This document shows positions 2,658 through 46,293 of a DNA stretch of 50,970 nucleotides, one piece after another. The notes beneath the pieces were generated by a model. That model did no database searches, had not been told where the DNA came from, and saw only the letters and a program-made list of their open reading frames with translations. Origin of the DNA: Thiotrichaceae bacterium (GTDB lineage Bacteria; Pseudomonadota; Gammaproteobacteria; Thiotrichales; Thiotrichaceae); contig JALSJU010000077.1 of assembly GCA_026989145.1 (NCBI GenBank), positions 1-50,970 on the forward strand, written 5' to 3'. Position numbers and translations under genes: made by a program. Within the stretch, counting starts at the first letter, position 1. Every line of letters begins with the position of its first letter.

Positions 2658-4121
2658 ATGAACAAGCAAACAAAATTAGCAATGCCATTGGGTTCAATTA
2701 TGATGGCAATAACAGGCTTTGCCAATGCAGGTACCTGCATTAGTCCATGTAATGTGGAGGCTACTGGTGATGCTGAAATTTACCTTGATGATATAAGCGT
2801 GGGTGGATTAGCATGGGAAATTGAAACTAACTTAAATGGTGCACTTTTAGTTATGGGTGCATAAAACGGCGTCCTTGAGCCCTTTAAAATTGAACGAGCA
2901 GGATCTGCAAATACCCTATATATTGGAACAGGTGGTAATGTAGGTATAAATAACGATGTACCTGCGGCACCTATTGATATTAAATCAATGTTACCTAGAA
3001 TTTTTTTGAGAGATACTACTCCTACAACAGGGAAGTCTGCTCGAGTTACGGTAAATGAAGATAAGCTTTTATTAGAGGATAATTCAGGAACTGACCAGTT
3101 TGTTATGGAGCTTACAGGTAGCACTACAAATCAACTTTACTTAGACGATTCTGGTGCTGTTGGTATTAATAAAGCGAATCCTACCTCAGGTGCTGATTTA
3201 GAGGTGGGCGGAGGAGGTAATATTTTACTGGAGAATGGCACAGAAGACTGGGCTATAAAGACAAGCAGTGCTGAGCTTATCTTTAGAAATGGAAATAATA
3301 CTATATATGGTTCATATCCCTTTCGTATAGAAAACCAGACTCCCGATACCAATTTTATCATGAAAAACAATGGGAATATTGGTATGGGTGGAGTATTTAA
3401 TCCACAAGCTGCATTGCATCTAAAAAGAGTAGGTGGAGGGTTAATCGTTGAAGATAGTAACTCAACGACGGCTGTTCGAAATGTAGTTAAGCTTAGAAAT
3501 AATGGTGGTGTTGGTTTCCAGCTTGAAGATACTAGCAATACCAATAAATGGGAGTTTAGAACGGGCGGTTCTGGCGCATTCTTAATTAGTGATGTAAATG
3601 TTGGTGGCGCTAAAATGTTGATGAACTCTACAGGCCTTGTTAAAATGGGGAAAAATGTAGCAGCGGGTAGTAATGCATGGAACTTTGAGCTTGATGCTGA
3701 TGGCGACTTGCATATACTTGGCAATATGTTTGTTTCAGGAACACAGCTAACCGTACCTGATTATGTCTTTGCTGATGACTATAAATTGATGCCACTGGAT
3801 GAACTTCAGAGCTTTGTGCAAAAGGAAAAGCACTTGCCCAATATTGCCAGCGAATCTGATATTAAAAAATCTAAGACAGTTAATGTGGGTAAATCGTAGA
3901 TGAAGCATTTGGAAAAAATTGAAGAGCTAACTTTATATACCATTCAGCAACATCAGCAGATTAAAGATCAGCAACAACAAATTGAAGCTTTGCGTGAATC
4001 TGTAGCAGAAAATACCAAGATGAAGGAGCAACTAGCATCATTGGAAAAGCTGGTAACAAATCTTGCCTCGGCTAACGGGCATCTAAGTCTTTCAGGTGCA
4101 AAAGTAGCAGCAGCCAAATAA
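2658..4121 (+). pseudogene. Tail-fibre-like secreted protein interrupted by two in-frame stops
   Basis: One frame runs from an ATG preceded by AAGGAG (2645-2650) to TAA at 4119-4121. It is interrupted only by TAA at 2862-2864 and TAG at 3897-3899. It starts with a signal peptide (IMMAITGFANAG). Next come short beta repeats of the LYIGTGGNVGIN and VGINKANPTSGADLEVGG type, seen in tail-fibre and adhesin stalks. The end is the conserved block LMPLDELQSFVQKEKHLPNI, then (after the TAG) a KHLEKIEELTLY coiled coil. That block is normally continuous, so the TAG sits inside a conserved region and probably replaces Gln (CAG). The TAA could likewise derive from CAA. Most likely a decaying gene; programmed readthrough is less likely. 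Confidence 0.7.
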
Positions 4122-4137
4122 GAAAACTGCTATGCCG

Positions 4138-4176
4138 CCAAACAAAAACCCAACTATATGTTGGGTTTTTGTTTGG
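4138..4176. terminator. Bidirectional intrinsic terminator
   Basis: A 17-bp perfect stem (4138-4154 with 4160-4176) around loop TATAT, with T-rich arms in both directions. It lies between the tail-fibre-like gene and the converging rmlA. The remaining 139 bases up to rmlA show nothing recognisable. Confidence 0.85.
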
Positions 4177-4315
4177 GTAAGCTTATGTAACATTTAAAGA
4201 CTCTAGCACGCACACTTTTAAATATAGCCTATTATTTTTTAACAATGTTAGACTTTATTTCTGCAGGGAAGCATCATGTAAAAGCGGATGTTTCTTATTC
4301 TATATCTTACTGAAA

Positions 4316-5197
4316 TTAGTTTTTTTCGTTTGCGCGCTCTAAAAGATAGCGACCATAGTTATTTTTCTTTAAGGGTTGAGCTAACTCAATCAGTGTGTCC
4401 TTATTTATGTAACCCATTTCATAAGCAATTTCTTCAAGGCAAGCAACTTTTAACCCTTGCCTGTTTTCAATCGTTTGAATAAAACTAGATGCCTCCATTA
4501 AACTTTCATGAGTACCAGTATCTAGCCAAGCATAACCTCTGCCCATTATTTCTACTTTTAAGTTTTCTTGGTCTAGATAAACTTGGTTGACAGTAGTGAT
4601 TTCAAGCTCACCTCTTTCTGAGGGTTCTATTGTTTTAGCAATATCAATGACACTGTTAGGGTAAAAATATAATCCAACTACGGCATAATTACTTTTGGGG
4701 GTATCAGGCTTCTCTTCAATACTTAATACGTTACCTTCATCATCAAATTCAGCAACACCATATCGTTCAGGGTCTTTTACGTAATAACCAAAAACAGTCG
4801 CCTTGCTTTTATTTTTTACATTTTTAATAGATCGTTCGAGTAAGCTAGTAAACCCATGACCATGAAAAATATTATCACCCAATACTAGGCACACGTCATC
4901 ATTGCCTATAAAGTCTTCACCAATGATAAATGCTTGCGCAAGTCCATCAGGAGAAGGCTGTACTTTATAAGAAAAAGACATACCAATATCTTTTCCATCT
5001 CCTAATAAAGACTCAAACTGAGGTAAATCATGAGGTGTAGATATAATTAATACTTCGGTAATCCCTGCAAGCATAAGTACAGAGAGAGGATAATAAATCA
5101 TTGGTTTATCATAAATAGGTACAAGCTGTTTACTTATACCTTTTGTGATAGGGTAAAGGCGCGTGCCAGAACCACCTGCTAGAATAATACCTTTCAT
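4316..5197 (-). CDS. rmlA: Glucose-1-phosphate thymidylyltransferase
   Basis: 293 residues, the usual length. It makes dTDP-glucose from dTTP and glucose-1-phosphate in the cytoplasm, the first step to dTDP-L-rhamnose and related sugars. The nucleotidyltransferase signature [11 protein letters not shown] is at residues 8-18, followed by [24 protein letters not shown] and the [19 protein letters not shown] segment are typical. AGG lies upstream of the ATG. The gene is an orphan here, since rmlB, rmlC and rmlD are not adjacent. Its neighbours are secreted-protein genes, so it may serve glycosylation or a polysaccharide locus elsewhere. Confidence 0.95.
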
Positions 5198-5332
5198 AAA
5201 ATGGAGCCTAAATATGTAGTCTAAGAAATATATATAGTTAATACCACAGTAGCTTATTGTGTTAAAGGGTTATTTTACGTATAGCTTGATTTAGATAACT
5301 CTAAGCAAAACCAATAGATAATAAGTATGGAG

Positions 5333-7144
5333 CTATTCTGTCATTGCACAGTAGTCGATATTAAAGTGTCGTAATTGATTTTGACGGGCATTATACGCAA
5401 CCCCTTCACAATCTGCGCTGTATTGGTTCTCTGGCATTAGAGCATTAAAAACAGCATTGAATGTTGCCTTTTGTGTAATAGGAATTGAGGCGTAACCATT
5501 GTTTTCATTGTTAAAGGCATCAGATGTTAATGCTCCTAATTGATATAGAATATCTGTGCGCCCATTTAGTAGAGTGTTTAAATCTCCCTTTATATATGAA
5601 TGATCATTGTGGGGAAGTGTTAAGAACTTATTTTCGGTATTGCTACTGAGGTTCCAGATGCTTAGGTGGATACGCGGATCAGTTCCCGTGCCGATTAAAT
5701 CATTCATTTGTATAAATGCGATATTGCCATGAAGAGTCGCTAAATCTTCTTGGTTCATGGTAAATGAGAACCACCCATCGATGGATAAAACTAAACTTGC
5801 AATACTTCCTAAACCACCGTTTGCGGGATCTTGAAAATATCGCATAACGTAGAAGGCTTGCCCGCCACCTTGAGAGTGACCCATTACGGCAAGTTTTGAG
5901 AGAGTCAGGCCATGAGCACTTATTGATAGATCTATTGCGCTTTGAACAATGCTTCTTGCATAATCCGAATCATAACTTCCTCCAGATTCTGCCCCGATGA
6001 CATAATACCCCTGTGAGGCCAGAAACATCATTGTGCCTTGGTAGTCATCTATGGTTGGCGTGTTACCACCCCCTTCTAAAAATACTATGACAGGCATATC
6101 TGCTGTAATGGCATTTTGTGGGTAATAAATAACATAGTTATCATCTGTAAGTCCATTTTCAGGATACCTGAGAGGCTGGTATGGGCCAAGCTCACCATAG
6201 TTGGTGAGAGAGGTTGCGGCAGTGTAGGTATAGTCCTCTGCAGTTTTCCATATGCCATATTCTTTATACTGTAAGCGGACAAAGGTTTCTCTGCCATCGG
6301 TTGGTAAGTTATTAATAGTGATACTTGTTGATGTATTGGCCGCAAACCGGTTTGCAATATCATTTGCGCCAAGACTACTACCTACACTAAGGTACCAATT
6401 TGTTAGTGGGCGTCCATTGTTATCTAGTAGGAAATTTACTGTTGAGCTTGTTAACATGCTCCCAGAGCTGGGGTAAGTAATACTGGGAGATAATAAAGGC
6501 ATAGATGCGGTATAAATAAAGTCATTAGCTACCTTCCAAACACCATTTTCTTTATACTGTAAGCGTACAAAGATAGGGCTACTGTCGGTTGGGAGATCAG
6601 TCACAGAAATTTGAGTAGAAGAGCCTGCTGCAAAGCGATTTGCAAGGTCATAAGACCCAAGACTAATTCCTAGTCTGATGTTCCAGTTGGTTATTGTTAA
6701 GCCATTATTATCTAGCGTAAATATTTCTGATGAGCTTGTTAATGTGCTGCCTGAAACAGGGCTGGTTATTGTCGGTAGAGTAAGAGAGGGTGAGGCTGTA
6801 TAGGTATAATCATTGGCGATTTTCCAAATGCCATTTTCTTTGTATTGTAATCGCACAAAAATAGTAGTGCTGTCTGTGGGGAGGTGATGGACAGTAATAC
6901 TGCTTGATGAACCTGCCGCAGAACGGTTTGCAAGGTTATCAGCCCCGAAATTACTGCCTACTCTAAGGTTCCAGTTTGTGACTACTTGCCCATTGTTGTT
7001 TAAAATAAAAGGCACAGATGAGCTTGAAAATATGCTTCCTGAATTTGGACTAGATATTAGAGGTACGCCGGCCTCGGCAGTTAAAAAATTACTCGATATT
7101 ATTAGATATAAAGTAAAAAGTAGTTTCGTAATTATTTTATTCAT
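5333..7144 (-). CDS. Secreted alpha/beta-hydrolase with three ~95-residue N-terminal repeats
   Basis: 603 residues from the ATG at 7144, which directly begins a signal peptide (MNKIITKLLFTLYLIISS). An upstream TTG is less likely. Residues about 25-310 are three copies of the repeat seen in the neighbouring proteases (SGSxxSSSxxxFxLDNNG, TNWxLRVGSxLGAxDxANRF, FVRLQYKExGxWK). The rest is an alpha/beta-hydrolase: a strand VIVFLEGGGN, nucleophile elbow GHSQGG with Ser about 424, and a candidate catalytic His in LPHNDHSY. Relatives are secreted esterases, lipases and polyester hydrolases; the substrate cannot be read. It ends the secretome run, with 30 bp between it and the M4 protease gene upstream. 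Confidence 0.8.
   Translation of the reverse strand: MNKIITKLLFTLYLIISSNFLTAEAGVPLISSPNSGSIFSSSSVPFILNNNGQVVTNWNLRVGSNFGADNLANRSAAGSSSSITVHHLPTDSTTIFVRLQYKENGIWKIANDYTYTASPSLTLPTITSPVSGSTLTSSSEIFTLDNNGLTITNWNIRLGISLGSYDLANRFAAGSSTQISVTDLPTDSSPIFVRLQYKENGVWKVANDFIYTASMPLLSPSITYPSSGSMLTSSTVNFLLDNNGRPLTNWYLSVGSSLGANDIANRFAANTSTSITINNLPTDGRETFVRLQYKEYGIWKTAEDYTYTAATSLTNYGELGPYQPLRYPENGLTDDNYVIYYPQNAITADMPVIVFLEGGGNTPTIDDYQGTMMFLASQGYYVIGAESGGSYDSDYARSIVQSAIDLSISAHGLTLSKLAVMGHSQGGGQAFYVMRYFQDPANGGLGSIASLVLSIDGWFSFTMNQEDLATLHGNIAFIQMNDLIGTGTDPRIHLSIWNLSSNTENKFLTLPHNDHSYIKGDLNTLLNGRTDILYQLGALTSDAFNNENNGYASIPITQKATFNAVFNALMPENQYSADCEGVAYNARQNQLRHFNIDYCAMTE
6215..7075 (-). repeat. Three tandem ~290-bp repeats encoding the ~95-residue module
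   Basis: Copies break at about 6805 and 6510, each ending in codons for DYTYTA or DFIYTA. At protein level they match the modules at 7185-8320 and 12795-13940. The order here is repeats first and enzyme last, the reverse of the two proteases. Confidence 0.85.
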
Positions 7145-10574: not shown

Positions 10575-12209
10575 TTATGATGCTGTTTTGATTTGTCCAG
10601 TACCTTGTGTAGTTAAAATTTCGCTTACTCCATTTGCATGTGAGAGTTGGAGGCTGGTAGCATTGTTGTCTTTAAAAATGATCTTTACAGTTAGATTGCA
10701 GATATTCGGACAACGTTGTTGCATCAGTTGATCATTAATATCAAATAATAGCTCAGGAGATTTTCGTGCATATAGCTCATAGAAGGTGTTATTTCCCCTA
10801 TCGGCTATCAAGTTGAGTCCCCAATTTTTTTCTGAGTTTGGCATGTCTTTACGCAGGTGAGGGTCTCCGTCTGTTGCACTAACAACTGAAAGCCAGCGAC
10901 CAAATTCATTTACTGTTGTGTAGCCACGATTACTTCCAGCTATTAAGCAAGGCTCTGAAGTGTGAGGTGTTTTATATTCTTTTGGATAGAGGCCTGAATT
11001 GGTGCTAAGGGTTCTTTCCCCTAGTACAACAAAAGCATCAGGGGTATCTTCGCGAGTCCTACCAAGTACTTTTGATAGGTAAGTTATAAAGTTGTTTGTA
11101 TTAAATTCGTCATTGAAGTTTCTTAAGAAATTTAGTTGCGTAGAACCTACAGAAAAGTAGTTTCTACGTAATTGTAAGGCCCGTAATGAACTCATGTAAA
11201 AGCGGTAACTTTGGTTGCTTGTAGGGCCGCTCGTATCTTCTAATCCAGGGCCATAAAATTCATTTTCATCACCCCAGTATCGGCCTACGATGGTATCAGC
11301 AAAGTTTTCATCAAATGTCATTGAACAACTGCCATCAGTGTTGCTACCGGTGATAAAATCAACACCATAAACGTTATCGGTATAGCGCATCCATGCTTCT
11401 ATTTCACCACCCCGATTTCCTATACCTTGGTCAATTGCATATTTGGCAATTGTTTTCATCTTATCTTGTATGTCGGGGTAACCAATATCACTACCATCAA
11501 ACACATCAAAACTAGTTAGCGCGAGTTTGTGTTTATATTTGGGGCCGAATGCATTAACATAGAGATCAATTATTTGTTTGGTTTTAGTTTCAAAAACTGA
11601 TGCCGTTAACCCACCTTGTTGAGTGGCCTCAGTCATTTCAGCATCGTTTAACCAAAACTCTCCCCAGCCATCTCTTCCAAAATTATAAACAAGTTGGTCA
11701 AATATTAAGTTATTGTCATCAATGTTGTTAGGGTCAAGCGCGCTAACATCAGGGCAGCTGTTTGTTTTATATTTTCCATCAGCAATTCCTAGTTGTACGC
11801 CTACAATTCTTGGGTTGTGCGCATAATCTTCTGCAAACTTATTGATAAAACCACTGACTTGATCTAAATATTCATTTTTCCAGAATTGTAGAGTACGACT
11901 ATTTAAAAATGGTATGGTTGTCCAAGAGGGAGTATGACATTGAGAGTTAACTTCAAGCCTTACTAAAACATCGCCAGTTGAATTGGCTAATCTATTAGCA
12001 AAATGATTAAAGGTGAAGACACCTTCCTCAAGTTCACTATGGTACCAAAGTACTTCAAGAAAACCCCCAGCAACCTCTATATCATCTGCTGCATCTTCAG
12101 CAAGCATACCCCCGTTTTTATTTTGTAATGCATCTGCATAAGAGGGTAGTGACCAGTCAAATCCGTTTGTTATATTTGGGATTTCAGTAGAGAAAGTTAT
12201 AGTTTTCAT
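10575..12209 (-). CDS. Putative glycoside-hydrolase-like TIM-barrel protein, probably missing its export half
   Basis: 544 residues. Patterns such as GGFLEVLWYHSELEEGVF, FINKFAEDYAHNPRIVGVQLG and GRYWGDENEFYGPG recall beta-galactosidase-like and other clan-A glycoside hydrolases, but I cannot name a family or assign catalytic glutamates with confidence. It starts without a signal peptide and without a visible Shine-Dalgarno site, although all its neighbours are exported. The frame is open upstream of the ATG and overlaps the end of the preceding ORF, giving LDIVNNTYPINS before the Met. This suggests a one-base frameshift has split one secreted protein. If intact it would act outside the cell on carbohydrate. 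Confidence 0.55.
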   Translation of the reverse strand: MKTITFSTEIPNITNGFDWSLPSYADALQNKNGGMLAEDAADDIEVAGGFLEVLWYHSELEEGVFTFNHFANRLANSTGDVLVRLEVNSQCHTPSWTTIPFLNSRTLQFWKNEYLDQVSGFINKFAEDYAHNPRIVGVQLGIADGKYKTNSCPDVSALDPNNIDDNNLIFDQLVYNFGRDGWGEFWLNDAEMTEATQQGGLTASVFETKTKQIIDLYVNAFGPKYKHKLALTSFDVFDGSDIGYPDIQDKMKTIAKYAIDQGIGNRGGEIEAWMRYTDNVYGVDFITGSNTDGSCSMTFDENFADTIVGRYWGDENEFYGPGLEDTSGPTSNQSYRFYMSSLRALQLRRNYFSVGSTQLNFLRNFNDEFNTNNFITYLSKVLGRTREDTPDAFVVLGERTLSTNSGLYPKEYKTPHTSEPCLIAGSNRGYTTVNEFGRWLSVVSATDGDPHLRKDMPNSEKNWGLNLIADRGNNTFYELYARKSPELLFDINDQLMQQRCPNICNLTVKIIFKDNNATSLQLSHANGVSEILTTQGTGQIKTAS

Positions 12210-29296: not shown

Positions 29297-29827
29297 TTAT
29301 TTTGATAGATGCTTCTCGAGCATTTTCTTTAGCTTTTCCTCGCTTAAAAAACCTGAAAATACAGATAATATTTTTTGTTCGGGGCTAATAAGAACCGTGT
29401 AAGGCAAACCGCCATTTGGATTTCCGTATGCGCTTGCCACATCATGTACCGTTTCAATGCCGTGGCCAATGGGGTAATTAATGCCAATCTCTTTTGCGTA
29501 ACGTAAAGCATCTGCCTTATTTTCAAGGGCGAGGCCAATGATAGTGAAGTTTTTATCGTTGTATTCTTTTTGGGTGTTTATAAACCCCGGGATTTCTGCG
29601 CGGCAAGGTGGACACCATGATGCCCAGAAGTTAAGTAATACCAACTTACCTTTATAGTCAGATAATTTAATTTTTGTTTCATCTAGTACCGACGGTAAAG
29701 AGAATTCGGAGGCGTTTTTATTAATTGTACTCGTTGGTGAGGTTGCTTGCTTTTTGTCGCAGGAACTTAAAGTAAGTAACGAAAGGCTGATAATAATTAG
29801 TGATACGATTTTCATGTTTGATTTCAT
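29297..29827 (-). CDS. TlpA/ResA-like thioredoxin lipoprotein
   Basis: 176 residues. The signal peptide has lipobox LLTLSSC (Cys about 24). A thioredoxin fold of the TlpA/ResA type follows, with LLNFWASWCPPCRAEIP (WCPPC motif) and a cis-Pro segment GGLPYTVLIS. It would be anchored outside the inner membrane and probably reduces disulfides in apocytochromes or other periplasmic proteins, taking electrons from DsbD encoded two genes upstream. It lies nine bp after the related gene. The start codon lacks a clear Shine-Dalgarno, so translation may depend on the upstream gene. Confidence 0.88.
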   Translation of the reverse strand: MKSNMKIVSLIIISLSLLTLSSCDKKQATSPTSTINKNASEFSLPSVLDETKIKLSDYKGKLVLLNFWASWCPPCRAEIPGFINTQKEYNDKNFTIIGLALENKADALRYAKEIGINYPIGHGIETVHDVASAYGNPNGGLPYTVLISPEQKILSVFSGFLSEEKLKKMLEKHLSK

Positions 29828-29836
29828 AATTGGAGA

Positions 29837-30367
29837 CTAGTTAGTTGTAAGGTGTTTTTCGATATCAGAAGAAAGTCGGGCTTCATTGAGTGTTTGGTAG
29901 CTAGGATAAATCGCAATTATTTTTTGGTTTTTGTTGATTAAAATAGAATAGGGGATTCCTATCATGCCGTATTTGTTACCTATTTCTATACCTTTTTCTT
30001 CGTCATAAAAAACTGGGAAATTAATACCTGCTTTTTTAGCATAAGCCTGAGTGAGTTCTTTGTTTTCAATTGAGATGCCTAGAATCGTAAAACCTTTGTT
30101 TTGGTATTTATTTTGTACCTTTATAAAGTCTGGGATTTCTTTTCGACAAGGAGGGCACCATGATGCCCAAAAATTGAGTAAAATTAGTTTGCCTTTGTGG
30201 TCTGATAATTTTCCGCTTCCAGCGGCTAAGGAGGGTAGTGTGAAATCATTAACTAACTGTCCTGCTCGGCTGGTATCGGGGGTGTAATATTTTAAATATC
30301 TCTTTATTGCGTATGCGGAGCCAAGAACTAAAGCAGTAAAGAACAGCAGAAAAAAAGTTTTTTTCAT
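29837..30367 (-). CDS. TlpA-like thioredoxin protein, membrane-anchored
   Basis: 176 residues. An N-terminal hydrophobic segment (FFLLFFTALVLGSAYA) acts as signal or anchor, with no lipobox Cys. The thioredoxin fold contains LLNFWASWCPPCRKEIP and cis-Pro segment MIGIPYSILIN. It is a paralogue of its neighbour and about as long, so a tandem duplication that has diverged is likely. It lies 11 bp after dsbD, fitting a DsbD-fed periplasmic reduction route. Confidence 0.88.
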   Translation of the reverse strand: MKKTFFLLFFTALVLGSAYAIKRYLKYYTPDTSRAGQLVNDFTLPSLAAGSGKLSDHKGKLILLNFWASWCPPCRKEIPDFIKVQNKYQNKGFTILGISIENKELTQAYAKKAGINFPVFYDEEKGIEIGNKYGMIGIPYSILINKNQKIIAIYPSYQTLNEARLSSDIEKHLTTN

Positions 30368-37799: not shown

Positions 37800-38627
37800 A
37801 TGCGTTTATTCAAAAGTAATAAAAACATCTTAAGAAGGATCTATAATCGTTACGCAGTTTTTTTACCGTTTATAGCCGTTTTTTCATTGGGCATATTTGG
37901 CACAAGTATTTATTATAAAAATCAACCCAGTATCACTGCAAGTCAGCAAAGCTCTAGCCTCTCCAAAGTAGAAGCGATTACGAACCAGCTTAATACCGAA
38001 AAGGATATTTCAGAAAGTCTTAGTAGTAAAAATGTTGAACTAAAGCAACGCTTAAAAGAAGCACTTAGTCAATCCGGTAATAGTATAAACGAGACGAAAG
38101 TTACCAAATTAAACAGTGACTTAGATCAAGAAAAACAAACAAATCAAAAACTTAATGATGAGAATGCTCGTTTAAAGGTTCGAATCAATAATATGCTCGC
38201 AAAAATTGAAGCAATAAAAAATAAACCTAAAATTAGCATCGCCGACTCTGAACTTGCTACACCGGTTGAGGGGGGGAGAAAAATGGCTCAAGATAATGAT
38301 ATAGGGGATGCTGAAAGTAAAAACTTTAATAAAGTTAAAATGAGCACATCAGAAAATAATGAAACTAAGGATAGTGTAAAGTCGTTAACGAATCGTAATA
38401 AAGCCGAAAAAATGCTTAACAAAGGAGAAGTTGTTAAGAAGAAAGTAGTAAAAGGTAGTAGGAAACGCACCATGAGATTAAAAAAAGGTGAGTCACTCTG
38501 GAATTTATCAAAACGTGCTTATGGTAAAGGAATTTATTATAAAAAAATTATTAAAGCCAACCCTTCATTAACCGAAAAAAGCTTTAAGCGACTCCGTCCT
38601 GGAGCGAGAATTAATGTACCACGTTGA
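37800..38627 (+). CDS. Membrane-anchored LysM protein with coiled coil
   Basis: 275 residues with AGGGGAAG upstream of the ATG. One N-terminal membrane helix (about 15-37: VFLPFIAVFSLGIFGTSIYY) after a basic cytoplasmic tail. A long coiled coil follows (about 55-145, Lys/Glu/Gln/Asn-rich), then a basic linker, and a C-terminal LysM domain (about 223-275: LKKGESLWNLSKRAYGKG, then LRPGARINVP). LysM binds peptidoglycan, so the protein should tie inner membrane to cell wall. It faces the motor-like operon, its stop 140 bp from the Omp85 gene's stop, and could be a functional partner. Confidence 0.82.
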   Translation: MRLFKSNKNILRRIYNRYAVFLPFIAVFSLGIFGTSIYYKNQPSITASQQSSSLSKVEAITNQLNTEKDISESLSSKNVELKQRLKEALSQSGNSINETKVTKLNSDLDQEKQTNQKLNDENARLKVRINNMLAKIEAIKNKPKISIADSELATPVEGGRKMAQDNDIGDAESKNFNKVKMSTSENNETKDSVKSLTNRNKAEKMLNKGEVVKKKVVKGSRKRTMRLKKGESLWNLSKRAYGKGIYYKKIIKANPSLTEKSFKRLRPGARINVPR

Positions 38628-38766: not shown

Positions 38767-40398
38767 CTAAAAAGATTTCGCAGTACTGATAGATATTTGA
38801 AATTTATCAACCGTTTGACGTTGGGTTAAGGGGATTGCTAAATTGAGATGCATCGTTTTAGAGGAGCTAGCACGGGTTGGTATCATGCGTAGCCCTATGC
38901 CGATATTGGCTGATAGTTTTGGATCTTTACTCCCTCCCCATGCGCTACCAATATCAGAGAAGGCTACAGCCCCGAACTTCACGAGGTGTAATGGGTACCA
39001 TTCGAAGTGGAGTCTTTTTTCTGCTTGTAAAAGGAATGATTTATCGCCTGTTTGGAAAGCTTTCGGAAATCCTCTCATTCCAGTATCACCTCCTAAATAT
39101 ATTCGCTCACTGGGGGTTAAGTGATCCGATGCTCTGAAAATTGCTTTTATGCGAATATCGTTTCCTGTTGATCTGAAGTGGTTTAACTCGCCTTTTAGCT
39201 GGTAATCACTGCCTTTTTTGGCTCCATTGCCTAAGTAATTATCCGTTTTTAATTCAATAAAACTTAATAGGGATTGAGTTAACTGAAAACCCTTTGAATA
39301 ATGGGTAGTTAATTTAAGTGTATTATCGGTAGATCCAAATTCTTTTAATAAAAGTCCAATGCCAAGGGTGATATTTTTAGCTAGAGCAATATCTTCGACC
39401 TTTCCCATGGTGTTGAAGTTAGTTTTTTTAATAAAATTCGTACCAAAATAATTAGTTTCAAACCACGGGTAGGATTCAATATGTCTAGTTGGTTTAAATA
39501 CTTGCGTCATACTCTTATAATTATTTTGTTTGTATGACCAGCCCACTTTAAAGCGTTGTTTCAGGTTGCTAGTGTGTTTTCCCGCCCAGCCATAATAAAG
39601 TGAATGAAGTTGTTTTTTTTCATTAATTTCTTGATCAACTTTGGCACTTTCATAAAGGGGGGTTGTTTGGGTTAAATGTGATGACTTTATTCCCCACGAA
39701 TAGCGACTATCAGATTTATAAAAAGGTAGCCCTAAATCAATATCATAACCTTTACCATCGGAGTTTTTTAGGAGATTGATCCTAAGTTTATAATGACTTC
39801 CCAATAAGTGATTATCCCGGTACGAAAGTTTAGTGGATGTTCTTTCAGATTGCTTGCTATAACCCAGCCTTAAATCTTTACCATGACCTAAAATATTTTG
39901 CTCTTGAACTTTAAAGCCGAACTTATTATTACCGCCACTTCGCCCAAAACTAATATCAGGGGTTAAAGTCCAGTTGTCACGTGTTTTCACGTTAAGGCTT
40001 ACTTGATTACCATTACATAATTCTGTTGGGATGATAGCTGCATCTTTTATATATGTTTGAGCCCGTAAATAGCGTTCTGTTTCTTTTATTTTATCTATAT
40101 TTAAAAGCTCTCCTGTTTTAAAGAGGAGTTGGCTTTGTATGGTTGTTACCTTTGTTTTGATATGAAGTTTGTTAATGATGTGGTGAACTTTTGTCGATTC
40201 ATTATCTAAGTTCAGATCAAAAATATCTAACGGAGAAATTTTGATGCGACCAACCTGGAGATTGGTTTTGTTTATAAAATGTGCTTTCCAGGGTGTGCAA
40301 TTATCTAATGAGCCCGCCTTTAATGGTGTGGATAAGGAGGCGAACAAAAAGCTACTGAGGATGAGTGTTATAACAAGCTTAAGAATGATTTTTTGCAT
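38767..40398 (-). CDS. Omp85-family outer-membrane protein with a short POTRA region
   Basis: 543 residues. Signal peptide 1-29, then a periplasmic region to about 150 with one or two POTRA-like units (LLFKTGELLNIDKIKETERYLRAQTYIKDAA), then a 16-strand-type barrel. The signature lid-loop motif is in ERIYLGGDTGMRGFP (RGF), followed by FGAVAFSDIGSAWGG, as in BamA, TamA and TpsB relatives. It is shorter than BamA (about 800), and skp, lpxD and tamB are not adjacent, so it is not BamA or TamA. It is the last gene of a six-gene operon, six bp after the metallopeptidase-like gene, and would supply the outer-membrane part of that machine. Confidence 0.85.
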   Translation of the reverse strand: MQKIILKLVITLILSSFLFASLSTPLKAGSLDNCTPWKAHFINKTNLQVGRIKISPLDIFDLNLDNESTKVHHIINKLHIKTKVTTIQSQLLFKTGELLNIDKIKETERYLRAQTYIKDAAIIPTELCNGNQVSLNVKTRDNWTLTPDISFGRSGGNNKFGFKVQEQNILGHGKDLRLGYSKQSERTSTKLSYRDNHLLGSHYKLRINLLKNSDGKGYDIDLGLPFYKSDSRYSWGIKSSHLTQTTPLYESAKVDQEINEKKQLHSLYYGWAGKHTSNLKQRFKVGWSYKQNNYKSMTQVFKPTRHIESYPWFETNYFGTNFIKKTNFNTMGKVEDIALAKNITLGIGLLLKEFGSTDNTLKLTTHYSKGFQLTQSLLSFIELKTDNYLGNGAKKGSDYQLKGELNHFRSTGNDIRIKAIFRASDHLTPSERIYLGGDTGMRGFPKAFQTGDKSFLLQAEKRLHFEWYPLHLVKFGAVAFSDIGSAWGGSKDPKLSANIGIGLRMIPTRASSSKTMHLNLAIPLTQRQTVDKFQISISTAKSF

Positions 40399-40404
40399 AG
40401 ACTG

Positions 40405-42282
40405 TTAAATAGAAAAACGTAAATCAGGCACTTCACGCTCAAACAATGCTTCAAAGGCGCGCTTTGCAAGCTCACGAATTTGCGGTGTTTTAAGGTCTAT
40501 AAGTGATTTGTAAATCGCCGTTTTTTTATCAATACTCAATGTATAAGTAGGCTGTTTGATAGCGACACCTAAACGTAGAGACTCCATCGTGTCTAAAATT
40601 AAACTGGAGGCATAGTATTCGGCTTGTCCCTTAGTCATTGGGTTGAGCGAGAAAATTAATAATTTACTGAGCCAAATATTATGTGCCTGCTCAGTATTGG
40701 CAAGTTGTGAAAGGTAGGCGCCGAGCTCTTCCATCGTATGCTCAGTGCCACTTTCGGTCAGCTCATCGTTAAAGGTTTTGGCCAGCCAAGCTGGTGTTTT
40801 CCAGTGTTTTTTATCAATTTGGTGATAGGCTTCGTGGAGTTCGATGCTGGGCAACAATACCGTATTGAGTTTATTGAGGAGCGCATATTCATCATTACTA
40901 ATTTTGTTTCTTTCTGCTAGGGAAGCATTTTTTTTATCTTTATTGGCTTTATTGAGTAAGACACTAATAGCATCCAAACCACCACCAAAAATATTTTCTT
41001 CATTGACGCTACTGTTTTGTTCCAGTGTTTGTTTCATCTTGGCATTTTGTAAGCGTTTTTTATTTTTGATTAGTTTTTTAATGGCTTTTTTTACTCGACG
41101 ACGTTCTGATTTATTGGCATAGATAGCATCCAAGTCTTGTTTGTAACCTTTGCTTATTGCCTCTTCAATTTCGTAATAACCTTGCATCCAATACGGGATG
41201 ATGTAGTTTCTGCCTTGAAAGGTGAGAGCAGGGAGTATTGACTCATCGGAAAAGTTTTTAATCCGCTCCATGAGTAAAATTGAGCCGAGTCCTTTGCCTT
41301 TAAAGGTAAGCCCTAGCGCGCTATCTACTGCCGGTACTTTATCAACACGACTGACTTGGAATAGTGGTAGCTCCGTTTCGAGAGTTTTACCTTTGGCATC
41401 AGCATGTTTATAAAATAGTGCATTACGTTTAGCTACTTTGTACACCGTCATCATGGTGGTGCGGCATAATTCTGGTTTACCATCACTCATCAGCTCTTCC
41501 ATTTTTTTCAGCATCATCATTTGTTCAACAGGTGCATCGATTAATGATGAGCAGGGCATAGAGAATGACTTTGGGGTTAAATAATAGGGTAAGCCTTTTT
41601 TATCAAATAAAGTATTGACCGATTTAAAGCCAAGCATTATGTCGCCACCTGATACATGCCGGTCGCTTAGTTTGTCTAATTGCTTAGCGATGTTATCGCG
41701 TATTCCGTCTTTTTCAGGTAGGTCTGCGAGAATTTTTTGTCGTGTTTTTCTGAGAGTTTCATCAAGGTTTGTTTGTAGTTTGGTATTGCCATTATTATGT
41801 TTTAATAATAGTTTCCGGTGTAATAAGTCGGAATAATAGGGTAAGTAATTAGCCAAAACATTTTCTATTTTACGTTGTTGATACCATTGATTAAGGGTAT
41901 AGCTGCCGAAAATTAGGCTGGCAATTAACGCGGGGTAGATTAAATATGCTTTAAAGCCGAGACTAAACAGGTTTAAAAACGGGGTTTTAACGGCTGGTGT
42001 TTCACGCTTAGCATGAGCAGCTTTGCTTGATTGTTTACTTCCCAAAAGTTGTTGAATTAAGGATTCTTTAAAATCTATATAAGTGACTGGGTAGATTCTT
42101 TTTTTACGAAAACGGGCTAATACCGTTTGTTTTTGCTTTAAGTAGCGTAATGATAGCAAGTAACGTATTGGATAAATCCAGCCTTTGTAGGTGCTGGCCT
42201 TTTCAAAGTCATCACTCGTCATTGCTCTTACAGCAGGGGTGTCGCCTTTTAGTAGCTCTTTTAACAATAACTTATTCAACAT
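40405..42282 (-). CDS. Membrane-anchored putative metallopeptidase (HEXXH) of the motor operon
   Basis: 625 residues from the ATG at 42282, two bp past the upstream stop, with AGGA upstream. A GTG at 42303 would overlap the previous gene. A basic cytoplasmic N-terminus (1-109) and one membrane helix (about 110-130) leave some 490 residues in the periplasm. These include HEAYHQID (residues 483-490) and, about 30 residues on, EELGAYLSQLA (Glu518/519). HEXXH with a downstream Glu is the gluzincin zinc-site pattern, so I infer a periplasmic zinc peptidase. I recognise no named family. A Lys/Arg-rich stretch lies near 395-425. Whether the site is active is unknown. Confidence 0.6.
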   Translation of the reverse strand: MLNKLLLKELLKGDTPAVRAMTSDDFEKASTYKGWIYPIRYLLSLRYLKQKQTVLARFRKKRIYPVTYIDFKESLIQQLLGSKQSSKAAHAKRETPAVKTPFLNLFSLGFKAYLIYPALIASLIFGSYTLNQWYQQRKIENVLANYLPYYSDLLHRKLLLKHNNGNTKLQTNLDETLRKTRQKILADLPEKDGIRDNIAKQLDKLSDRHVSGGDIMLGFKSVNTLFDKKGLPYYLTPKSFSMPCSSLIDAPVEQMMMLKKMEELMSDGKPELCRTTMMTVYKVAKRNALFYKHADAKGKTLETELPLFQVSRVDKVPAVDSALGLTFKGKGLGSILLMERIKNFSDESILPALTFQGRNYIIPYWMQGYYEIEEAISKGYKQDLDAIYANKSERRRVKKAIKKLIKNKKRLQNAKMKQTLEQNSSVNEENIFGGGLDAISVLLNKANKDKKNASLAERNKISNDEYALLNKLNTVLLPSIELHEAYHQIDKKHWKTPAWLAKTFNDELTESGTEHTMEELGAYLSQLANTEQAHNIWLSKLLIFSLNPMTKGQAEYYASSLILDTMESLRLGVAIKQPTYTLSIDKKTAIYKSLIDLKTPQIRELAKRAFEALFEREVPDLRFSI

Positions 42283-42284
42283 AA

Positions 42285-43919
42285 TTATTTTTCCTGTAAC
42301 CACTTTTTAACGATTTTAGTCCGTGAGATACGGTCATTGTTTGGTATTTCGACGTAACAATCAGCAAGGTCGACCATTTTTATTGCTTGTTGACGAATAT
42401 CAGGGTCATTGATTGAGTCGTCCAGTCCACGCTTAAAGCCGCTCCAATCCCAGCCACAAATATATTCTGGCATTAGTTTAAAACGACTGGCGATATTATT
42501 TAAAGTGATTTTAGCCTTATTAAATTGCTTGTTTTGTAAGTAATAAATCGTCACAAGAGTATCTTTTATTTGCTTATAACCATCGGTTAAACGCCCGCTA
42601 GAGTTAATGTCTTGGAGTAGTGACTCAAAAGTCTCGTTATCAATATTGGCGGTGACGTAGGTTTCTAACAGGTCGAGATCAATTTCACCGGCAACTTCTA
42701 GCACAGTTGGTGTTTTCTTTTTGATACGTTTCAATATGTTACGGGCTTTTTCTAATTCGTTTGTAGCGGTTGCTAAATCATTAAAATACAGCCATGCCAA
42801 CGCGCCAGACTCACGGTGACGAGAAGCGACATAGGCGGGGCTGAAATCGTTATTTTTTTCAATGTAGTTGGTGGCTTCTTGAAAACATTGGTAAGACGTT
42901 TCAGCCTTATTAGTGTCACCCGCATGATGGTTGATGGCAGTAAGATACCAGTACACGCTATTGATGTAGCCTGCGTCACCGGTACATTGTAGTTTACGTG
43001 CATGTTCTATAGTTTTTTCTACGTTTTTGGTGCGATAAAAACACTCAACCGCAAAATCTTCTAAATCGGCTTTAATACGGCTTTCTGATTCTCGCCATTG
43101 TAGCTGTTCGCCGATACTTCTAATTGATGATTCAATTTTCTCGCAATCTTGCTCATTTTCTAAAATGGAGCGATACGCTTCCATCAGTAATACGACTTCT
43201 TTACGACGTTCGCCCGGCGCATTGGGGATGTCTTTCGCCGGGCAACTAATCGCAGCTTCTTTGGAGCACTGGAACAGCGGTTGGCCGTTTTTGTTTTTTG
43301 CATCCTTATTGTTTTTAGCATTTTGCTGGTCACGCTTCATTTTTTGAATCGCATCTTCGCGCATTAACGATTGCATAAACTCCATTGGTGACTGTTTGTT
43401 GCTGGCTTGACGGCTAAAGTCAAAAGACAATTCAGGGTTTTGTTTTTGCAAGGTGGTAATAATTTGTACCATTTGCTGTTTGGCTAACCATTCGGTAAAG
43501 GCAAATTTTTCAGGGTTGGCTTCTTCAGGAATAGGTTCAGGCTCTGCTAAAGTGTTCCATAAAGCTGTGGCGATTAGTGCCATCGCTAACAAGGGTAACA
43601 GGGTGACTAACAATAACTTTTTGCGGGTATGGCTACGGGCTTTTTTGAGTCGATTTTCTAAAGCGAGTGAGCGTTGTTCGGTTTTAGCATGGGTCGCTTG
43701 TACCACATCTTTATAACTGCTATTTGCGGCATCTAGTTCACCTAAATGGCGCTGAATTTCTGCAATATTATAAATTAGTTCTGGGTTTTCAGGATCATTG
43801 TTTAGCTTGTTTTGCGCATGGCTTAACAAGTCTTCTAAAGATGTATTCGGTGCGAGATTCCAGTTGGCCTTTAATAAGCGAAAAGGGGCTTTTACATTGT
43901 TTTTCTTGTTGTTTGGCAT
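42285..43919 (-). CDS. TPR-containing single-pass membrane protein of the motor operon
   Basis: 544 residues. Residues 1-98 are cytoplasmic with a TPR-like pair (NPELIYNIAEIQRHLGELDAA). A membrane helix follows at 101-121 (KLLLVTLLPLLAMALIATAL). The periplasmic remainder is helical with TPR-like spacing and several Cys (FQCSKEAAISCPAKD, ENEQDCEK). I recognise no enzyme motif. It lies four bp after the ExbD-like gene and three bp before the metallopeptidase-like gene, so it is probably a structural scaffold bridging the membrane complex to periplasmic partners. Confidence 0.7.
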   Translation of the reverse strand: MPNNKKNNVKAPFRLLKANWNLAPNTSLEDLLSHAQNKLNNDPENPELIYNIAEIQRHLGELDAANSSYKDVVQATHAKTEQRSLALENRLKKARSHTRKKLLLVTLLPLLAMALIATALWNTLAEPEPIPEEANPEKFAFTEWLAKQQMVQIITTLQKQNPELSFDFSRQASNKQSPMEFMQSLMREDAIQKMKRDQQNAKNNKDAKNKNGQPLFQCSKEAAISCPAKDIPNAPGERRKEVVLLMEAYRSILENEQDCEKIESSIRSIGEQLQWRESESRIKADLEDFAVECFYRTKNVEKTIEHARKLQCTGDAGYINSVYWYLTAINHHAGDTNKAETSYQCFQEATNYIEKNNDFSPAYVASRHRESGALAWLYFNDLATATNELEKARNILKRIKKKTPTVLEVAGEIDLDLLETYVTANIDNETFESLLQDINSSGRLTDGYKQIKDTLVTIYYLQNKQFNKAKITLNNIASRFKLMPEYICGWDWSGFKRGLDDSINDPDIRQQAIKMVDLADCYVEIPNNDRISRTKIVKKWLQEK

Positions 43920-43923
43920 ATGC

Positions 43924-44553
43924 TTATTGGCTCCCTAAATAGGAGGGTAAATAGGCACAGCGTGGGCTAAAGCTTCGGTCGCAAATATGTGTCGGTGCTT
44001 CGCTGTTCACGGGTTGCCAGCCGGTTTTTATGGCGCGCGTTTTAAGGTATTCTCGGGCCTTGCGAAATGCTTCAAAACCACTCCCAATGGCAGCGCCGTT
44101 TTCACTACTATCATAGACAAAAAAGTAAGCAAAATGTGTTTTAGGGTTGATGCTATCAAGTTTTTGACGAAGTTTAGATTGGCGTTTGTCTATGTCTTGA
44201 AATGGGTCCCATTCGGTGGTGTCACGGGCGTAAAATGAAATGCCATTGTCTTGATCAATTTTGCCGAGCAAACCAGAGTAATCTAATGGAAACAGGCGTT
44301 TATTGGCGGCAGCTCCATTGGTTGCTTGCAACGTGGCATTGGCAAACAATTTATCTGTGTCCATTTGCAATAAGTGATCATCTTTACTGATAAAAAATAC
44401 TGGGCTTAATTCCGTCGCATGTTCAATGGGGATCTCGAGTTGATAGGTCTTGTTGTCATCGTGAATCAGGTTAATCACGGCAAAAATAATTAGAATACCA
44501 ACAGAATTCGATACGATATCAGTTAATGAGTCTAGGCTGATGAGGTCTTTCAT
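43924..44553 (-). CDS. ExbD-like one-helix protein keeping the membrane Asp
   Basis: 209 residues. The only membrane helix is at the extreme N-terminus (about 8-30: SLDSLTDIVSNSVGILIIFA). Aligned with ExbD/TolR (xxTPFIDVMLVLLIIFM), Asp12 falls on the proton-carrying Asp. The rest is periplasmic and lacks an OmpA peptidoglycan-binding domain. A Cys pair (HICDRSFSPRC) ends the protein. It overlaps the preceding ExbD-like gene by four bases, so the two are translationally coupled and probably form a hetero-oligomer in the channel. Confidence 0.7.
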   Translation of the reverse strand: MKDLISLDSLTDIVSNSVGILIIFAVINLIHDDNKTYQLEIPIEHATELSPVFFISKDDHLLQMDTDKLFANATLQATNGAAANKRLFPLDYSGLLGKIDQDNGISFYARDTTEWDPFQDIDKRQSKLRQKLDSINPKTHFAYFFVYDSSENGAAIGSGFEAFRKAREYLKTRAIKTGWQPVNSEAPTHICDRSFSPRCAYLPSYLGSQ

Positions 44554-45176
44554 TGGCTTGCCTTGTTAAGCTTGTTTAAGTTTAACGTCCAGTTGGAATC
44601 TAAGGGCTCTAGCCCTACGCTAATCGCGCGTGAATCTTCGGTTAAGGTCATTACATCACGTACTTTTTGATATGCTTGGCCACCGTTGGGGTAAATACCA
44701 AATAATAAAAACTCTTCGTAAAGATAATTCGCGCGTAAAGCAATTTCATTAAGTGAACGTATATTTCGCATAATATTCAGCACGTTATCAATATCAGGGT
44801 CTTTGGCAAGTGCCATTACAGTACCCGTATGATTTTCCAGTTTTTTTAGCTGGCTTTCGCGTTGTAGAATAATAGTCTCAATGGTGTCTTTATCATCATC
44901 GTTGTTTGTCGCTGTTTGTAGCTTTCGCAGGTATTTTGTTGGCGGTACGCTAATAATGCCATCGGGTAGGTTAAAAATTTGGTAGGCAACTTTGTAACCA
45001 GTTTCGAGTTGCGCCGTTAGCTCTATTTTTTGTGGCGCACTAAAACTGCTGAGTACATTGATAAACGACAGTACCCCCATGACACACAGAAAAATACTCA
45101 AAAACGGGAATAGGCTAATCTCTAGCTTATCTTGCTGGTTGTATAAAGCGTATCGTTTTGCGCGGGAAAGAGCCAT
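44550..45176 (-). CDS. ExbD-like one-helix protein with Ser in place of the membrane Asp
   Basis: 208 residues. A short basic cytoplasmic start, then one helix (about 19-42: EISLFPFLSIFLCVMGVLSF). The segment EISLFPFLS lines up with ExbD's DINVTPFID, but Ser27 stands where the catalytic Asp would be. The periplasmic part has a coiled-coil-like stretch and a helical end. It is the first of two coupled ExbD-like genes after the channel gene. The Asp-less subunit may be structural or set stoichiometry, with proton transfer left to its partner. 106 bp without a gene separate it from the channel gene. Confidence 0.68.
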   Translation of the reverse strand: MALSRAKRYALYNQQDKLEISLFPFLSIFLCVMGVLSFINVLSSFSAPQKIELTAQLETGYKVAYQIFNLPDGIISVPPTKYLRKLQTATNNDDDKDTIETIILQRESQLKKLENHTGTVMALAKDPDIDNVLNIMRNIRSLNEIALRANYLYEEFLLFGIYPNGGQAYQKVRDVMTLTEDSRAISVGLEPLDSNWTLNLNKLNKASQ

Positions 45177-45282
45177 TTATTGAGCCAACTTTATTACACA
45201 GAGAGAGCAAAAACTTACACCGAGGGTTGTAGAGAAAAACGTATTAATAGGGGAGTATTTAATCATTTTTCTTCACTTTGCT

Positions 45283-46293
45283 TTACTTGGTGAATGACTT
45301 TTTGTTTTCAATTTTTGCGGTAAACACTGTTTCATACAAGTCTTCCATGGTTTCTTGCAGTGCTTTGACTTGGGTACCGAGTTGCTTGATTTCAATTGCT
45401 ACTTGTTTTGAGCTATCAGCTGTTACGTTATTATTGCTCGTACCTGATGTTAATACCCCTGATGTCGCTGTTGTAGCGTGCGCTACAAAGCCTTTTTCTT
45501 GCAATGCAGGTTTGATTTCATGAAACCAGCGTTCATCCAAGTCAATTAAATAGGCTTCTTCAGATTTCTCAAGCGTAAGCATTAACATCATTAAGGGAAT
45601 GCTCAATAAAAGTGCTAATAAAGTTGTATCAAATGCAGTAGCAAGTGAGTTAGTTACTAACGGTAAGTTTTCTTTTAGCATGGTAGATACGTCGGTAACG
45701 GATCCTGTGTTAGTCATGGCGTCGGAGAAGTGTGCGATACCGTTACTGATGCCCCAAACGGTGCCGATAAAACCTAAAATTGGGATTGCCCAAATCATAA
45801 AGCGGGGCAGGGCGAATGAGCCTTTTAATTGCTCTTTTTCCTTTATTCCAAAGCCATCATCAACTTCGCTGTCATTGTGGTTTAAAAATAGAAATAGACG
45901 GGTAATGAGTAAATTATTATCAGCAACACCTTCCGATTCTGCCTTTGTTAAAAGGTTCTTATTGAGCTCAATTTTGTCATCTGTAGCTTCAGCTATGAGT
46001 GATGGAAAGATGGTTTTTGATAGATTTTGACTTTGCGCTTGTTCTTTTATTAGTTTGCCTTTTTTAAGCCACAAATGAAAAAAACTGGCACAAAAAAACC
46101 ATAGAATAATGGGTGAGATCCAATTGCCAAAAAATAACTTAAATGCGCGTGGCATATTGGTTGAATCACCCATAAACCAATATAAGGCTAAGGAAGGCAA
46201 TAAAACCAACAGTGCGGTAATGATTAAAGGGGACTTAAACGCTTGTTCAACTGGGTAAATTGTCGTTGGCGTGGTGTTTAGTGGTTGGGTCAC
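45283..46293 (-). CDS. MotA/TolQ/ExbB-type proton-channel protein
   Basis: 336 residues with four membrane helices: about 18-40, 55-75, 165-190 and 215-240. The last two carry the family signature: FMIWAIPILGFIGTVWGISNGI and LATAFDTTLLALLLSIPLMM, matching the proton-path helices of ExbB, TolQ and MotA. The cytoplasmic loop between helices 2 and 3 is about 85 residues. A C-terminal coiled coil (IEIKQLGTQVKALQETMEDL) follows. It would form the pentameric channel around the ExbD-like helices and turn the proton motive force into movement. First gene of the operon. Confidence 0.88.
   Translation of the reverse strand: MTQPLNTTPTTIYPVEQAFKSPLIITALLVLLPSLALYWFMGDSTNMPRAFKLFFGNWISPIILWFFCASFFHLWLKKGKLIKEQAQSQNLSKTIFPSLIAEATDDKIELNKNLLTKAESEGVADNNLLITRLFLFLNHNDSEVDDGFGIKEKEQLKGSFALPRFMIWAIPILGFIGTVWGISNGIAHFSDAMTNTGSVTDVSTMLKENLPLVTNSLATAFDTTLLALLLSIPLMMLMLTLEKSEEAYLIDLDERWFHEIKPALQEKGFVAHATTATSGVLTSGTSNNNVTADSSKQVAIEIKQLGTQVKALQETMEDLYETVFTAKIENKKSFTK

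Follow-up and report, generated by a model that had tools for sequence, protein, structure and literature searches.

In models of the known 5:2 proton motors, each helix of the central dimer carries an Asp, and proteins with the fold of dipeptidyl peptidase III (DPP III) undergo large open-close motions on substrate. To our knowledge, no metalloenzyme partner is known for AglRQS, the gliding motor of Myxococcus. According to PMC9389320, which is also cited for the two-Asp modelling of known 5:2 motors, AglRQS contains a single ExbB/MotA homologue and two homologues of ExbD/MotB; AglQ and AglS are each predicted to have the Asp, and their pairing as a heterodimer is not settled there. Here we analyse a stretch of 50,970 nucleotides from a Thiotrichaceae bacterium (the window; G000:C77, one contig of a 2.63-Mb, 133-contig assembly), in which the adjacent genes exbB-exbD1-exbD2-tpr-hexxh encode an ExbB-type channel, two ExbD-like subunits, a tetratricopeptide repeat (TPR) protein and a protein with a HEXXH motif. 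These five proteins, which the initial annotation of this DNA had grouped with a sixth, form a conserved, co-inherited set. The two ExbD-like subunits differ at the position of the proton-carrying residue, which is always Asp in one and always Ser in the other, and the set most likely forms a proton-motive-force-driven machine of the envelope that works on peptides of the periplasm or the wall.

All six reading frames that had been claimed at 38767-46293, i.e. the five genes and a sixth, omp85, are found there on the minus strand. The tight packing with one 106-bp gap is likewise borne out: this gap separates exbB from exbD1, and the remaining junctions are a 4-bp overlap of exbD1 with exbD2 and gaps of 4 bp between exbD2 and tpr, 2 bp between tpr and hexxh, and 6 bp between hexxh and omp85. 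The 2-bp distance holds with hexxh starting at the ATG at 42282 instead of the GTG at 42303, which we adopted because the proteins of relatives align from there. The features of the five-gene set are:

45283..46293, minus strand: exbB, ExbB/TolQ/MotA-type channel of 336 amino acids with about four hydrophobic segments

44550..45176, minus strand: exbD1, ExbD-like protein with one transmembrane segment (TM), C-terminal part predicted to be periplasmic; Ser27 codon at 45096-45098

43924..44553, minus strand: exbD2, ExbD-like protein with one TM and a probably TolR-like periplasmic head; Asp12 codon at 44518-44520

42285..43919, minus strand: tpr, N-terminal TPR part predicted to be cytoplasmic, TM at residues of about 102-120, periplasmic part of about 420 residues, eight invariant Cys

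40405..42282, minus strand: hexxh, membrane-anchored DPP-III-fold metalloenzyme-like protein (predicted), 625 amino acids from the ATG at 42282

40822-40836 and 40726-40731, minus strand: codons of H483EAYH487 and of E518-E519, respectively, in the HEXXH protein of the window

In relatives found via the HEXXH protein the five genes keep the same order and orientation. We refer to Thiotrichaceae genera by the labels g1 (the genus of the window), g224, g227 and g228, to genomes by G numbers and to loci by L numbers. All five genes are joined in 9 of the 11 carriers of g1 and g224, with hexxh cut by the contig end in G282. In the other two, G276 and G281, the triplet exbB-exbD1-exbD2 reaches one contig end and hexxh begins at another, and a scrap of tpr is left in G276. 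The flanks of the five-gene loci mostly vary, with a cytochrome-maturation or ileS-like region shared by a few relatives. The initial annotation had allowed that the grouping could be accidental if the middle genes had no relatives linked to ExbB-type genes elsewhere; such linkage is found in relatives for the five genes. Of the proposed six-gene unit, these five recur in order. The sixth, omp85, does not lie beside them in any further genome with both. The unit comprises five genes rather than six.

The genome of the window also carries a second copy of exbB-exbD1-exbD2-tpr (L006, G000:C7:1-6480, at 3444-6480), cut at the contig end and with an open reading frame of 131 amino acids, GxxExxY-like by eye, between exbB and exbD1. 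This copy falls together with those of the window and G279 (support 81/90) and may be a paralogue or a binning contaminant. In G286, a caspase-like protein (by eye) is encoded near the five-gene locus (L014, 12968-14896).

The five genes fall into two modules, the triplet and the tpr-hexxh pair. In g227 and g228 (six genomes read) the pair stands without the triplet, which is located elsewhere in the genome. Both ExbD2 and HEXXH occur in 11 of the 16 genomes of these two genera, on different contigs in ten and, in G294, at a distance of about 9 kb; the other five (G295, G306, G312, G313 and G316) have ExbD2 only. These five are fragmented drafts, 56-93% complete, and in G306 tpr is truncated at the contig end. 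A TPR match in G295 (E 4.9e-4) was dropped as generic TPR, so that 17 genomes and not 18 were counted in the TPR search. Across the order, 27 of 63 genomes have ExbD2 and 22 have HEXXH, and none of the 22 HEXXH genomes lacks ExbD2. Within g1 both modules are present in 10 of 12 genomes and neither in two; within g224 one of six genomes has both and five have neither. Among 36 genomes of the family, hexxh and exbD2 are both found in 17, exbD2 only in two, hexxh only in none and neither in 17 (Fisher p = 2e-8, kinship between genomes uncorrected). Because the triplet and the pair lie apart in two genera yet co-occur, their joint presence argues for functional coupling. Against coupling, the modules are unlinked in two of the four genera (g227 and g228), all carriers were found in one family, the within-family pattern could come partly from shared ancestry, and a single deletion could have removed both modules in g1 and g224. 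The triplet and the pair might then be two independent systems that became neighbours by chance in two genera of shared lineage. We regard this as improbable in view of the joint presence and absence in g1 and g224, the zero in 22 HEXXH genomes and a five-gene order kept amid changing flanks.

The remaining gene of the proposed unit and the adjacent LysM gene are:

38767..40398, minus strand: omp85, Omp85/BamA-TamA-type outer-membrane protein of 543 amino acids; Pfam Omp85 43.2 bits; judged to lie outside the system

37800..38627, plus strand: gene for a LysM protein, convergent neighbour; Pfam LysM 25.3 bits; judged to lie outside the system

An Omp85 orthologue is present in 15 of 57 related genomes; four BamA-like matches (E 4e-4 to 8.5e-4) were dropped, including the only one in G277, hence 15 and not 16. 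Seven genomes have both omp85 and hexxh, which are linked in the window only and lie on different contigs in all six others. In the 36 family genomes the two occur independently of each other (7 with both, 10 with hexxh alone, 8 with Omp85 alone, 11 with neither; Fisher p = 1.0). At 11 Omp85 loci of relatives (of 14 with an orthologue) no gene of window positions 30001-50970 except omp85 itself is found beside it, and other neighbours recur, namely a small membrane protein of 168-215 amino acids at six (L121, L122, L124, L125, L126 and L127) and a cytochrome-b561-like gene at three. The usual setting of Omp85 therefore differs from that in the window, and the neighbourhood with the small membrane protein is possibly its true context. 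A six-gene machine with Omp85 as its outer-membrane pore, which the 6-bp distance to hexxh had suggested, is thus extremely unlikely given the six unlinked genomes out of six, the uncorrelated presence and the different, partly recurring neighbours. That Omp85 might usually be unlinked had been named as an argument against the grouping, and this is the case for the omp85 gene; once it is left out, the main support for movement across the outer membrane is gone. The LysM protein, once suggested to be a wall anchor, has no match in the loci of relatives that were compared, whole genomes not having been searched for LysM. We consider both proteins bystanders rather than parts of the system. Elsewhere in the window, the gene at 10575-12209 has a 41% relative near the Omp85 locus of G275, and two tandem TlpA-like thioredoxin genes (by eye; 176 amino acids each) lie at 29297-30367 on the minus strand.

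ExbB scores 29.2 bits with Pfam MotA_ExbB (curated cut-off 22.9). Its segments 'ILGFIGTVWGISNGI' and 'LATAFDTTLLALLLSIP' match up by eye with TolQ segments of the same genome, and it has pore segments with G-x-x-GTVWGI and a TM ending in S/A-I-P, most residues being invariant in 17 rows. Neither ExbD1 nor ExbD2 has a Pfam or NCBIfam match at E<=0.01. In the window ExbD2 has no Pfam match at E<=1, ExbD1 has none to the ExbD model, and neither has one in NCBIfam; a Pfam rescan of 16 ExbD2 members also gave no family match. Their reading as ExbD-like proteins rests on gene order, on the TM motif beside the genome's own TolR and ExbD, and on a weak TolR fold match. With the TM register set by eye against these two proteins, the motifs are 'EMNVVPYIDVML' in the own TolR, 'VNLTPLIDVVF' in the own ExbD, 'EISLFPFLSIFL' in ExbD1 and 'ISLDSLTDIVSN' in ExbD2. 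At the position of the proton-carrying Asp, the own TolR and ExbD have Asp, ExbD1 has Ser27 and ExbD2 has Asp12. Ser27 is invariant in 17 of 17 rows and Asp12 in 16 of 16, both row sets including the second copy on C7. Of the ExbD and TolR hallmark, a single TM with a conserved protonatable Asp, the Asp is present in ExbD2 and missing from ExbD1.

In VIA, a structural model of ExbD2 (m75fe95aa893b; predicted local distance difference test, pLDDT, 73.6) most resembles E. coli TolR (5by4; Z 5.4, root-mean-square deviation 4.2, 92 aligned of 105 residues), the only chain with Z of at least 5 among 997. From this model, the head of ExbD2 is likely to be TolR-like. The locus thus resembles ExbB-ExbD and TolQ-TolR in its ExbB-family channel, in a single-TM partner with a membrane Asp and in a weakly predicted TolR-like head. 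It differs from them in its unequal pair of ExbD-like subunits, of which one carries Ser, in its TPR and metalloenzyme-like partners and in lacking any match to TonB or TolA. From AglRQS, with which it shares the pairing of one channel with two partners, it differs by the Ser of ExbD1, as both AglQ and AglS are predicted to be Asp-bearing in PMC9389320.

Further genes were noticed in these genomes. In the genome of the window, an ExbB-like gene (348 amino acids) followed by one for a 530-residue protein with a MotB-like TM, 'FWPSFTDIMMVIVMVFLL', lies at 5667-8302 of L007 (G000:C116), behind non-ribosomal peptide synthetase-like and phosphopantetheinyl-transferase-like genes (by eye). In g228, exbD2 is followed by one or two genes for one-TM, coiled-coil-looking proteins of about 190 and 180 amino acids (L109, L110, L111 and L115; in L111 the first is followed by the contig end).

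In the HEXXH protein, some 100 residues at the N-terminus are followed by a moderately hydrophobic segment (13/13 rows) and a large C-terminal part. HEAYH and EELGAY are present in all 13 rows; EExxA is retained, and the D/E that follows it is replaced by Y. For comparison, PMC5805324 and PMC9820243 give HEISH or HELMH with EECKAD or EEAKAD for short bacterial DPP III, and the second Glu of the EE motif as zinc ligand in Caldithrix DPP III. Using a structural model of the HEXXH protein (m5124e6769e10), VIA-align places, among the chains listed, 15 of the DPP III/DUF6421 fold in rows 1-15 (10 DPP III and 5 PolE; Z 9.3 to 6.1, next row 4.8), which cover model residues of about 130-616. We counted all 15 as one fold because PolE (DUF6421), an Fe/pterin oxidase, is described as structurally homologous to DPP III in PMC12614342. 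The top entries in Foldseek are an M1 aminopeptidase and two of DPP III, at E-values short of significance. The distance from the first His to the first Glu is 34-35 residues, compared to 29-33 in 15 M49 proteins drawn from Pseudomonadota. The DUF6421 spacing HE/DxxH-X21-23-E does not apply, with 30 and 31 residues from the second His to E518 and E519. We predict a membrane-anchored, metalloenzyme-like protein whose periplasmic domain has the DPP III fold.

The closest known proteins of this fold differ from the HEXXH protein in several respects. With the pentapeptide DPP III of family M49 (Caldithrix abyssi, Corallococcus; Z 8.6 and 9.3) it shares the predicted fold, the HEXXH followed by EExxA and a similar spacing. 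In contrast to them, it has no Pfam M49 match (none at E<=0.5 in 13 members) and no conserved catalytic His, and it carries a predicted cytoplasmic N-terminal part and membrane anchor. PolE shows the same predicted fold (Z 8.8-9.2) and, according to PMC12614342, equally lacks the DPP III His; it is an amino-acid oxidase of antibiotic biosynthesis, and its HEXXH-to-Glu distance is shorter. The genome of the window itself gave no M49 match. Weak matches of HEXXH members in Pfam (best DsrD, E 0.003, in 4 of 13) and PHROG (E 0.02-0.07) were taken as chance, and a sequence search of solved structures gave no meaningful match for ExbD2, ExbB or HEXXH.

The TPR protein has a Pfam TPR match. Because seven K/R precede its single hydrophobic segment, its N-terminus is placed inside. 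When its profile was compared with solved structures, the matches were confined to TPR and other repeat proteins, of which almost all are designed. Cys 218, 226, 259, 293, 312, 345, 488 and 521 are invariant in 13 of 13 rows. These eight, as well as the two invariant Cys each of HEXXH and ExbD2, all lie past the TM segments, on the predicted periplasmic side, a placement that would be as expected for disulfides in the periplasm.

Taken together, we propose a five-protein inner-membrane machine of two co-inherited modules, whose motor drives or gates a metalloenzyme acting on periplasmic or peptidoglycan-linked peptides; this is the reading we favour, at a little short of an even chance. In the machine as we infer it, including the stoichiometry of the ring, the contact between the modules, the substrate and the coupling, module 1 would be an ExbB-type ring around the unequal ExbD-like pair. 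Protons would pass via the single Asp12 of ExbD2, with ExbD1 (Ser) as a non-protonatable partner. Module 2 would comprise the TPR protein and the membrane-anchored DPP-III-fold metalloenzyme, both with cytoplasmic N-termini and large periplasmic C-terminal parts. Proton flow would move the heads of ExbD1 and ExbD2, the disulfide-rich TPR protein would transmit this motion and thereby drive or gate the clam-like HEXXH protein, and the latter may trim, process or release periplasmic or wall-linked peptides. A bolder version is a half-armed ExbB ring, in which an Asp-bearing and an Asp-less ExbD provide one proton site for stepping and mechanically open and close the DPP-III-fold enzyme via the TPR linker, so that the whole would be a hitherto undescribed peptide processor of the periplasm powered by the proton motive force; we regard it as speculative and rather doubtful.

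Neighbouring genes in g227 hint at the cell wall. In 4 of 4 loci (L112, L113, L114 and L116; by eye), exbB is preceded at a distance of 21-36 bp by a gene for a DacB-like D-Ala-D-Ala carboxypeptidase, and an OmpA-like lipoprotein gene begins, at its first possible start, 14-38 bp downstream of hexxh, again in 4 of 4 (L047-L050; by eye). The OmpA-like gene, the ExbB family and the weak TolR likeness of the ExbD2 head would also suit an energiser of the Ton or Tol type that serves outer-membrane transport or constriction and has the TPR or HEXXH protein where TonB or TolA would be. This is quite improbable, since the genome has its own TolQ-TolR-TolA-like set (on contig C23) and a second ExbB-ExbD (TolR, TolA and ExbD by eye), neither the TPR nor the HEXXH protein matches TonB or TolA, and the loci compared contain no conserved gene for an outer-membrane partner; tolA, tolB and pal were not recognised beside the five genes.

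In g227 we also noticed, by eye, PilT/PilU-like ATPase genes upstream of tpr, three of them in three of the loci L047-L050 and one visible near the contig end in the fourth. Together with the presence of two ExbD-like subunits per ExbB, as given for AglRQ/S in PMC9389320, they could point to a surface motility or adhesion motor like AglRQS or GldLM. We consider such a motor very unlikely: tpr and the closest PilT-like gene are 416-427 bp apart, and this in one genus only, and no gliding or adhesin gene was recognised among the conserved neighbours.

Several further points weigh against a motor that drives or gates a peptide-processing enzyme. Confidence is moderate for both models, with pLDDT 71.6 for HEXXH and most of the ExbD2 TM under 50. 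The TolR match of ExbD2 exceeds unrelated folds (Z 4.8) by only 0.6, and in Foldseek the ExbD2 model has no significant E-value and the best match of the HEXXH model (E 0.23) is not significant. Profile comparison of HEXXH with the 15 M49 proteins detects no overall sequence homology; only the motif region aligns in register, and weakly (P 0.037, probability 1.4%). The M49 catalytic His follows the Glu motif by 48-50 residues in 13 of the 15 M49 rows and by 55-56 in the remaining two. It is without a conserved counterpart in the HEXXH protein, where one of 13 rows has a His at that place (L045, at 49). Residues 458-541 of HEXXH give a hit to a DndG model of the defence library (E 0.0007, 17 bits), which we take as chance, and the dacB and OmpA neighbours are confined to one genus.

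The initial annotation spoke of a putative peptidase. The DPP-III-like fold and the metal motif agree with this; the claim is weakened by the catalytic His that is not conserved. Since a Pfam M49 match, overall profile homology and a conserved His of this kind are all missing, we call the protein DPP-III-fold metalloenzyme-like; it may or may not be a peptidase. It is conceivable, if somewhat unlikely, that the modules are coupled and that the DPP-III-fold protein is a non-peptidase clamp or sensor (a pseudo-enzyme) or performs other metal chemistry like the DUF6421 protein PolE. The lack of the His would fit, as would the PolE rows, which score as high as those of DPP III. However, the metal motif is invariant in 13 of 13 rows, the His-Glu distance is nearer to that of M49 than to the DUF6421 spacing, and a supply of pterin is not expected in the periplasm.

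As to the spread of the set, HEXXH was found in 1 of 274 class genomes, its own. Among 398 phylum genomes searched at E<=0.05, a single one had it, leaving aside three stray matches (E 0.006-0.042) that we regard as chance, two being broken by stops and the third covering only profile positions 55-134. ExbD2 was found in 1 of 299 phylum genomes. HEXXH and ExbD2 were hence not convincingly seen beyond the order in the class or phylum samples. ExbD1 was found in 1 of 274 class genomes (E<=0.05) apart from four stray matches (E 0.013-0.041), three of which look spurious. The fourth belongs to G017 and looks like a vWA protein that has an ExbD-like TM; it comes from an adjacent pair (L131, 661-2779). 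Like ExbD1 and ExbD2, this pair consists of two adjacent one-TM proteins, with a TM 'SFLDAICC.FG' in which the Asp stands seven residues before the Gly; unlike them, both partners have the Asp, and their heads look vWA (by eye). Paired ExbD-like proteins are perhaps a wider theme.

Viral contigs contained no relative of HEXXH, and plasmids none of HEXXH or ExbD2. In a PADLOC scan of eight proteins, the best defence-library matches of ExbB are weak ones to ZorA models (24.9 and 21.1 bits), a likeness to the ZorAB motor of Zorya which, with the weak DndG match of HEXXH, might suggest a Zorya-like or other anti-phage defence system. Such a role is barely credible: no ZorB, ZorC, ZorD or ZorE partner is found among the proteins scanned, the flanks look like housekeeping regions and not a defence context, relatives are absent from the viral contigs and plasmids as stated, and the spread is confined to one family. 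We therefore rejected it.

The initial annotation knew of no system with this set, and none was found described in the open-licence PubMed Central papers that we searched. This literature contained no paper linking ExbB/ExbD with HEXXH and tetratricopeptide proteins or with dipeptidyl peptidase III, and no ExbD/TolR paralogue without the conserved aspartate was found in it. The locus marks two uncharacterised protein families as belonging together. A motor coupled to a DPP-III-fold protein, if true, ties this fold to an ion-driven machine, and a natural motor with one partner that always has Asp and one that always has Ser would let the need for two proton sites in stepping be asked directly.

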